A stretch of 64,000 nucleotides of DNA. Origin: Owenia fusiformis. Taxonomy: Eukaryota; Annelida; Polychaeta; Sabellida; Oweniidae. The position numbers were made by a program, and so were the translations under genes. Positions 51,069-54,100 of the stretch are shown piece by piece. The notes under the pieces were generated by a model, which did no database searches, had not been told where the DNA came from, and was given only the letters and a program-made list of their open reading frames with translations. The stretch's first letter is position 1; every line of letters starts with the position of its first letter. The DNA lies in assembly GCA_903813345.2 (NCBI GenBank), contig CAIIXF020000001.1, positions 35,431,366 to 35,495,365 of the forward strand, given 5' to 3'.

Positions 51069-51176
51069 CTATCCCTTGATTTTATAAGCATTGCGCATCA
51101 TCAAGTCAAAGTAAGCATCTTGATCGATTGAAGCACTGACTCCTGCATAATAATTCTGAAATTCTTCTTCTGTGAT
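51069..51176 (-). CDS. CAPSL: CAPSL alternative terminal exon c
   Basis: Acceptor CACTTGCAG, then 35 codons and a stop: [18 protein letters not shown] followed by [17 protein letters not shown]. It is the most distal copy, about 4 kb from exon 3. Confidence 0.85.
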
Positions 51177-54100
51177 CTGCAAGTGAAAACGCAATGTGAT
51201 AAATAAAATAAAACAAGCATTGTGAATGGAAACTAAACGTGGAAGCAGTAAATGAAATTGAATTCAGTGAAGAAATGTTGAAATATAGTGATAAAACATC
51301 CAATATTAGAAATTGATCTAAAAAATTGTCATTATACACCATAATACAGACTGGATACTTTAATATCAAAGAATGACTCATATGTATCATACAACAGAAA
51401 CAAACATGTATACAAGTTAAATATTTACAGATACAAATTTTCATTACCTACCAAGTACTACATGTAATTCTTAATCTATTATTTAAATATACATAATCTA
51501 TAATAATACTATTGAGTTTGCACATGTTGCTCAAATCAAGCCTAATATTCATTATAAATATGCAATCAATAAGTATTAAAGTGTATTGCATTTAATTAAT
51601 TCTACACAAGCACTCTGCTGCAGTTCTACATGTAAATCATGAAGTGGCTAAAACTAAATCTACATGTACAGAGCATTGGTATGAAAGCAATCACGAAACC
51701 ATAATCATACATGATAAATCAAAGGGTATTCTACACTTCAACATTCAATCAAGAAACGCCATATCTAAGGTACAAGAATGAAATGTTGTCAACCCTGTGA
51801 GGAATCAGAGATAGTGTTTTACAAGCCACTAAACTGTTGCAGTCACTTCTACAGCTTGGACACCTAACACAAGAATATACACTGTAAACATATTAGGGAC
51901 CATCTCAAGTAGTCTTGCCTCAAGACTGTGTACCCCACCCCCTTGTGTACTTCACCTCTCCAAAACAGGTGAAGTGAAGGTTAAATACATGAGGGGAGGG
52001 GTACACAGTCTTAAAGCAAGAGTCATAAGGGACAGTCTTTCAGGGATTGTCTTCTATTTACTTCTAAAGATGGTCCCTAAACTAGAGTGATACCATGTAT
52101 TGAATTTTCAATTTTACTTGGAGCGTTGAATCTGATTATTTAAGAGAAAAGAAAATATCTTAATCAGTGGTTACATTGGCATTGTTCCCTTGTTTTTTAA
52201 CCCAAATTCCCATTTTTTTGAAGAATTAAGCAGCTGTTTCTTTGTTAAAATCATAATTTACACTGCCTGGTGTTTTCAGTAAGTTGTATTGCCAATTGTG
52301 AGAAATTCTAATGAGACCCCTGATTCTGATTAGGAATCTGGTTTATCTAACGATTAAATTAATCAATTTATGGAATTCAATCTTGGTATCACCCTACCAA
52401 ATCACAATATTGCTAAATCTAGTCTGGATGGATACTGCATATCTATAGCAAGAGAATCAGACAAAATAGCACTTAAAACTACTTTGTCTTGCATTAAGTC
52501 TGTGGTTAAATTGCTCCCTGCTTGTTTTTATTGTCTATTTGGGAGTTTGAGAATATGGTGAATAACCAAACACTTGATGCAGACAAGATGTAGATAGATT
52601 ACTAATAATTTTTATATTGATTTGTGCTAATTGATTTCATCATTGTCGTTGAGGGATACAGATTCTAGATTTAAAACTAGAGGATTCACTGCATCATTTG
52701 TCTTAAACTCTGCATGTCCTCACATATTGGAACTACTTCTTGAGAGCAGGCCATGCTGCACGCATCATCAAATCAAAATATGCCTCGCTATCAATGGAAG
52801 CGCTAACACCAGCATAATAGTTGAGAAATTCGTCTTCTTTGATCTGCATAGAACCAACAGAAAGGAGGTTATTATATATACATCAAATATGTTTTTAAAG
52901 GTTAGATACTCTAAGAAAAATATGGTAGTCATGTTTTGAAAACCCAAAGGATAGTGAAAGCAATGGACAATGTACATGTATTTAATAATTAAAAGTATTG
53001 TAAGCATAAAATAAACATGATACTCCGAGAACAGGTATTCAATTCAATTCCAAATGGCAGCCATTTGAATGGAGTGGACATCTTGAAAATTCCTTCTCAG
53101 GTTCTAGATTATTCTATGATCACAAGGTATCAGTCTATGAAATTTGAACTAAAGAACCTGTATACAACTTATTGTCTATATATAGCCAGATGCACAGAAA
53201 GCTCTATGTTCCTTTTCGATCTTCATTCAGTGGGATATTTACAGACCAGTGGTTCTACTTATTTTCATAGATGCTGTTTATGTTATAACATATGACCCAG
53301 TGCTCGTGTCACACCCTATTTCTCGTTAATATTATCATACAGCTGTTTCATAATGTACAGTGCATTATATGCAGCTTTATTTTATATGCAGCTATATTTT
53401 ATATGCAGCTTTCATCATCAGATCAAAGTATGCCTCATTATCAATGGACGCACTCACACCAGCATAGTAGTTCATAAAATCAGATTCTGTGATCTGAAAT
53501 AAGAGTTTTAAAATCAAACTGGAAAGTTTTAACAGTTTTATAACTGCTCAATGGGTAGAGTTTATATGCATGCCCTCTGTGCCTGTAAAGATACAATAGC
53601 AAACTGCTAATCTGTCAAAGTTTCATTTCTATTGTTTGAAGAAAGGATAATGAATATACATATAAAACTGTTAGATGTGGGTCTAAATATAATAAATCAT
53701 GCCAATTAGTTTGATATATACAGGTAGTATATAAAGTAAACCAGTATCAAATTAAGCTACTCATATTTCAGATATTAAATCAATAAACAGAATTTATCAT
53801 CACATTTAATATTACGCATCAGGTTAAGAACCTTGGTAGTTGTAAGCGTTGTGAATAAAACATCAATCAACAACATCTGCAACTAAAATATGGATATTTA
53901 TTGGGAATATTCATGTGTATTATGCCCATGGATCCTGAAAGCAACATCTGCCACCATATACAATATTAAGATCAATACTACAATTTATTTCTGAAAAGTA
54001 ACACGTGAAATCAAATTACTGCTTTATGACTGTTGTGAAATTGAAAGTGAAAATGGATGCATTCAGATACAATATTCTTTGATTCATCCCTCTTAATCCA

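Follow-up and report, generated by a model that had tools for sequence, protein, structure and literature searches.

A calcyphosin-like gene of Owenia fusiformis probably ends in three alternative last exons, so that, as judged from its DNA sequence, one CAPSL-type gene would give rise to three C-terminal variants of its protein. The gene lies on the minus strand, from 56574 to 51069, of the 64,000-nucleotide stretch of contig CAIIXF020000001.1 (assembly GCA_903813345.2) that was analysed and that we call the window. It codes for a protein with four EF-hands and has three upstream exons followed by three homologous terminal exons, which are named here C1, C2, and C3. The three terminal exons are old and have been maintained as protein-coding sequence for most of their existence, as laid out below.

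Structure of the gene

All gene coordinates given here are on the minus strand of the window. The coding part of exon 1 (56438..56574) supplies 45 residues and a split arginine codon and ends in the donor AAG/gtgaag. Translation probably starts at the ATG at 56574, which is 17 codons upstream of another in-frame ATG at 56523, and it is preferred because with it the protein can be aligned to PDB 11yj (chain 11yj_1A) from residue 1 onward. Exon 2 (55779..55956) carries EF-hands 1 and 2 and exon 3 (55160..55369) carries EF-hand 3 and the first half of EF-hand 4; the window holds one copy of exon 2 and one strong copy of exon 3. The donor of exon 3 at 55160, which is common to all the endings, follows the residues KDGV and reads GTT/gtaagt. 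Behind it come C1 (53392..53493) with 33 residues, C2 (52733..52843) with 36 residues, and C3 (51069..51176) with 35 residues. Each of them has an AG acceptor in phase 0, matching the phase of the exon 3 donor, and each has its own stop. An earlier sequence-only reading of this DNA had placed the donor at 55160 and the acceptors at 53493, 52843, and 51176, with all three endings in the same phase and each with its own acceptor and stop; these positions were confirmed, and the stops end at 53392, 52733, and 51069. Several 3' exons, each with an acceptor and a stop in the phase of one donor, are the anatomy of alternative last exons, and the complete gene model has consensus splice sites throughout.

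Candidate poly(A) signals, identified by consensus match only, are found behind each terminal exon on the same strand. An AATAAA at 53376..53381 begins 11 bases past the stop of C1, another AATAAA at 52527..52532 lies about 200 bases past C2, and an ATTAAA at 50865..50870 lies about 200 bases past C3. The first AATAAA behind C3 starts only at 50323, and this run of about 740 bases without an AATAAA counts against alternative last exons as the explanation. A short tandem repeat with a period of 17 (53365-53412) covers the last part of C1 together with the stop and AATAAA of this exon, and therefore the 3' end of C1 may have been shaped by local repetition. On the transcribed strand between 50700 and 55159 the motif GCATG was not enriched (9 occurrences against a shuffle mean of 5.5, a count reached by 25 of 200 shuffles), and neither were five further motif patterns. 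Rfam gave no matches at the gathering threshold in 50000-57500 and ARAGORN, run with the bacterial code over the whole window, gave no genes.

Other features were seen in the window. The gene for the V-type ATPase 116 kDa subunit a, with PF01496 in three open frames, has its exons at 35583-46108 on the plus strand and stands tail-to-tail with the calcyphosin-like gene. An exon of a phosphorylase-superfamily gene (PF01048), which we take to be MTAP-like, is at 63314-63616 on the plus strand, and an exon for the DNA primase large subunit (PF04104) is at 13033-13227 on the minus strand. A retrotransposon open frame of 717 aa with reverse transcriptase and zf-RVT domains occupies 8697-10850 on the minus strand. 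Two arrays with units of about 172-174 bp are present at 3758-4426 and 5962-6799, and by eye their consensus units look reverse-complementary.

The protein belongs to the calcyphosin/CAPSL family

The protein with the C3 ending matches PDB chain 11yj_1A, named 'Calcyphosin-like protein', over its full length, residues 1-208 to residues 1-208 (E 3.2e-88; 40 chains), and this bears out the assignment as calcyphosin-like that had been made from the letters alone. The second solved relative is human calcyphosin, 3e3r_A (E 7.1e-60, residues 26-209 to 21-203). Further solved relatives are RIB22, RIB57, and RIB35 of PDB entry 8g2z, which we take to be axonemal proteins of Tetrahymena. The end pattern YY.GVSAS...D..F..MM..A is the same in 11yj and 3e3r as in the studied gene, but each of those chains shows one ending whereas the studied gene offers three alternative endings. 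Pfam EF-hand_1, EF-hand_5, EF-hand_6, EF-hand_7, and EF-hand_8 all scored over their cut-offs, with the best stretches in EF-hands 1 to 3, and EF-hand 4 is visible in the alignment to the structural relatives. On the evidence of its predicted protein, the gene is a member of the calcyphosin/CAPSL family. Exon 2 folded alone (59 aa) gave a model with a mean pLDDT of 81.5. Foldseek with this model put 3e3r first at E 0.0099, with none of 148 matches under 0.001; VIA gave a best Z of 4.6, ranked unrelated proteins such as NrdR among its leading matches, and adds nothing. The entry 11yj was absent from the best 50 matches of Foldseek and of VIA, whose libraries extended up to April 2026.

The splice junction lies inside the loop of EF-hand 4. 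It had been claimed that the choice of ending changes the loop residues, and the residues TESD in C1, KEDE in C2, and TEEE in C3 were found as claimed; the endings also differ at a few helix positions and in the tail. By EF-hand numbering, residue 9 of the loop would be T, K, and T in C1, C2, and C3, respectively, and the last residue would be D in C1 and E in C2 and C3. By the same numbering, the loop presumably has one or two additional residues ahead of its glycine in this protein and its aligned relatives. Because of these additional residues, that claim implied more certainty about a direct change of calcium affinity than is warranted; an effect of the ending on calcium binding is possible, not certain.

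The terminal exons are homologous

A mechanical repeat search of 50700-56700 found seven direct-repeat families, and the longest of them, 104 nt, consists of C1, C2, and C3; the identity of the other two copies to the reference copy is 70% and 74%. In the first 90 bases of coding sequence, C1-C2, C1-C3, and C2-C3 have 71/90, 64/90, and 67/90 identical bases. When the three terminal exons were cut out and both strands of the window were scanned without gaps, the best matches elsewhere were 42/90 for C1, 44/90 for C2, and 45/90 for C3. Chance similarity was rejected on the basis of the repeat family and these background matches, and the claim of three homologous terminal exons is thereby upheld. 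The similarity starts at the splice site and stops before the tails, and the introns and 3' flanks are unrelated. The last intron bases upstream of the copies are identical at 8/20 positions in every pair, with 20-28/80 further upstream and 23-33/100 past the stops, which is near background.

The terminal exons have been kept as coding sequence

Synonymous and non-synonymous changes were compared by the Nei-Gojobori count over 30 codons; there are about 17 silent sites per exon, so the figures are rough. The proportion of silent differences (pS) ranged from 0.58 to 0.80 (C1-C2 0.58, C1-C3 0.77, C2-C3 0.80) against 0.12 to 0.18 for replacement differences (pN; C1-C2 0.12, C1-C3 0.18, C2-C3 0.13). 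Only C1-C2 has a finite dS, of 1.12 with dN/dS 0.12; in C1-C3 and C2-C3 the silent sites are saturated and dS is beyond correction. The differences at codon positions 1, 2, and 3 were 4, 4, and 11 for C1-C2, 6, 4, and 16 for C1-C3, and 2, 4, and 17 for C2-C3. The three pairs share 24/30, 23/30, and 24/30 residues. This was set against a neutral simulation that started from the letters of C3 with uniform substitution, with 20,000 runs each at dS 0.6, 1.0, and 1.4, and no run at any of the three divergences reached 23/30 identical residues, the value of the lowest real pair. Since the silent sites have diverged far and the replacement sites little, the copies are old and have been maintained as protein-coding sequence under purifying selection for most of that time. 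The suggestion of selection in the sequence-only reading is thus substantiated by the C1-C2 dN/dS and by the third-position excess of differences.

Paralogues in the genome

The complete genome (498 Mb in 525 contigs) was searched with the protein at E up to 0.001, which gave 17 matches; a search of this kind scores only the best candidates, exon by exon, so that weak matches can escape. Six were at the locus, namely, exons 1, 2, and 3 and the three endings, and 11 were elsewhere. Five of these 11 belong to three paralogues on contig C9 and the remaining six may be other EF-hand genes. A near-identical set of exons 1 to 3 occurred once in this search.

The first paralogue, L001, is an intact gene for 209 aa with an intronless coding region (944-1573 of L001, corresponding to contig C9 10738243-10738872). 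Its genome match (10738309-10738869) has 58% identity over query residues 6-191, and its C-terminal part is a 33-residue ending that closes in RSAWKL, near the RTAWKL of 11yj. L001 is probably an old retrocopy that was retained as a gene. Unlike the studied gene, it has no introns in its coding region and hence has a single fixed ending. The second paralogue (L002/L003) lies in two blocks at 38.15-38.16 Mb and the third (L004) at 35.45 Mb of contig C9. When a 37-residue mix of the endings was searched with E up to 10, six places were found, the three at the locus and one in each paralogue, that of L004 being a weak match at E 0.437. Among these paralogues and the studied gene, several endings are found only at the studied locus. 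The place and phase of the exon 3 donor are shared by an intron of L004 (KDGE/VTPKEF); L001 and L002 have no intron there. If the intron shared with L004 was inherited, then it predates the triplication.

The residues shared with the intronless L001 (21/30 for C1, 21/30 for C2, and 24/30 for C3) are hardly fewer than the 23 or 24 shared between the copies. C1 is the most changed copy with respect to L002, with 15/30 shared residues against 18 and 18 for the others. In a tree of the eight terminal peptides over 36 columns, five of five inner branches were open, and the tree therefore does not place the exon duplications before or after the divergence of the intronless copy.

The genome search gave 34 innexin matches. 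Plentiful innexins are a protostome trait, against vertebrates. The genome looks like that of a protostome, so the comparison with vertebrate genes that had accompanied the first description of this layout is beside the point. Forkhead domains gave 38 exon matches, not merged into genes, on contigs C1, 3, 4, 5, 6, 8, 9, 10, and 11. They include tandem groups of four at contig C8 13951116-13967262 and of three at contig C10 20683397-20703742, each match being one open frame of 233-429 aa. According to PMC9539403, the 35 Fox genes of O. fusiformis are spread over nine of its 12 chromosomes, two of which carry tandem foxQ2 genes. The forkhead layout seen here fits that description; the chromosome numbers given there disagree with our contig numbers. 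A search of the genome for COX1 did not find it. PMC9977687 reports transcriptome profiles across the O. fusiformis life cycle.

Alternative explanations

It is unlikely, in our estimate, that only one or two of the copies are used and that the other is a relic which was silenced recently and still looks intact for lack of time. Exons this short may by chance retain open frames for some time; in 15% of the neutral runs at dS 0.6 both frames were still open, and for this reason open frames alone are weak evidence. Against a relic, all three pairs have relatively many silent and few replacement changes and the AG acceptors are present in 3/3 copies, although one copy may have been silenced recently. 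Much less probable is that C2 and C3 close tandem copies of the gene, the remaining exons of which lie elsewhere, were lost, or were missed. Calcyphosin paralogues do occur in this genome, as the loci on contig C9 show, but tblastn of exons 1 to 3 against the window found each of them once with a strong score, and the genome search found the one near-identical set only. Tandem gene copies are made unlikely by this single set, and tandem gene duplication as the origin of C2 and C3 was rejected when a second set of exons 1 to 3 was found neither among the best-scoring candidates of the genome search nor in the window. The same tblastn search gave one extra weak match to exon 3, of 16 residues at 56985-56938 (E 0.047). 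That haplotype copies were set in tandem by the assembly is hardly conceivable; nothing was found in favor of it, pairwise comparison of the copies gives 19, 26, and 23 mismatches over 90 bases, and the sequences flanking them are unrelated.

We therefore favor a single gene whose transcripts would end in one of three alternative last exons. An old phase-0 intron within the loop of EF-hand 4 delimits the terminal exon, which would have been copied twice long ago, with an acceptor, an open frame, and a stop retained in every copy and perhaps a separate polyadenylation site as well. Different transcripts would then join the exon 3 donor to C1, C2, or C3, and any one mRNA could carry only one ending because the frame closes in each of them. 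C1, the nearest, would be chosen when splicing and polyadenylation there outcompete skipping, and C2 or C3 when C1 is skipped. Three proteins would result that differ in the second half of EF-hand 4, in parts of the last helices, and in the tail.

A probable link to cilia and microtubules

A beta-tubulin of this genome matches 11yj_A1, tubulin beta-4B, which is in the same entry as the 'Calcyphosin-like protein' chain. That tubulin sequence occurs in 22 entries, including 7rro, 7ung, 8iyj, and 8j07; by their titles, 8j07 is the doublet microtubules of human respiratory cilia and 8iyj those of mouse sperm. Tektin and DM10 exons of the genome match doublet microtubule entries and the CH_2 (SPEF-type) exon has three matches; 11yj was not among the matches of these tektin, DM10, or CH_2 exons. 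The gill of mussels is a ciliated tissue. A calcyphosin-like protein is recorded in mussel gill in PMC5302490, and PMC9934393 includes calcyphosin in a mosquito sperm proteome. An exclusively ciliary role is counted against by a non-ciliary role of CAPSL in the vascular endothelium, as reported in PMC11392532. A role in cilia or on microtubules is suggested by the closest solved relative, 11yj, sharing its entry with a tubulin beta-4B known from cilia, and the protein is probably cilium- or microtubule-associated.

If the protein acts on ciliary microtubules, the endings might suit different cilia, cell types, or binding places. Tentatively, and with more doubt than confidence, we suggest that the endings were kept by selection because they fit a single calcium sensor bound to microtubules to different cilia, such as those of the sperm flagellum, the larval ciliary band, and the adult epithelium, or to different attachment sites along the microtubule, with the last residue and residue 9 of the loop tuning the calcium response. 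On this same tentative suggestion the arrangement of endings may date far back among annelids or spiralians.

Precedents and significance

In the titles and opening lines of abstracts of the openly licensed papers that literature searches listed, with 15 of 6,091 papers covered in one of them, no report of alternative last exons in a calcyphosin gene was found. Alternative C-terminal exons in one gene are already known and the calcyphosin-like case is a modest variation on that theme. Tropomyosin has exon 9 variants at its C-terminus. PMC3912159 describes alternative C-terminal exons with EST support in the muscle myosin heavy chain of annelids and a limpet, with three such exons in Capitella. 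What the studied gene has in common with myosin and tropomyosin is one gene with several exons for its C-terminus; the difference is that those are unrelated proteins with RNA support whereas the present case was read from sequence. The calcyphosin-like terminal exon carries half of an EF-hand loop and its copies are clearly homologous.

If all three endings are made, this EF-hand protein would have three C-termini with the rest constant, which would be a clean natural experiment. A probably ciliary calcium protein would then have gained variety through terminal-exon duplication with no need to duplicate the gene, and the intronless paralogue would provide the contrast of the gene-duplication route in the same genome.
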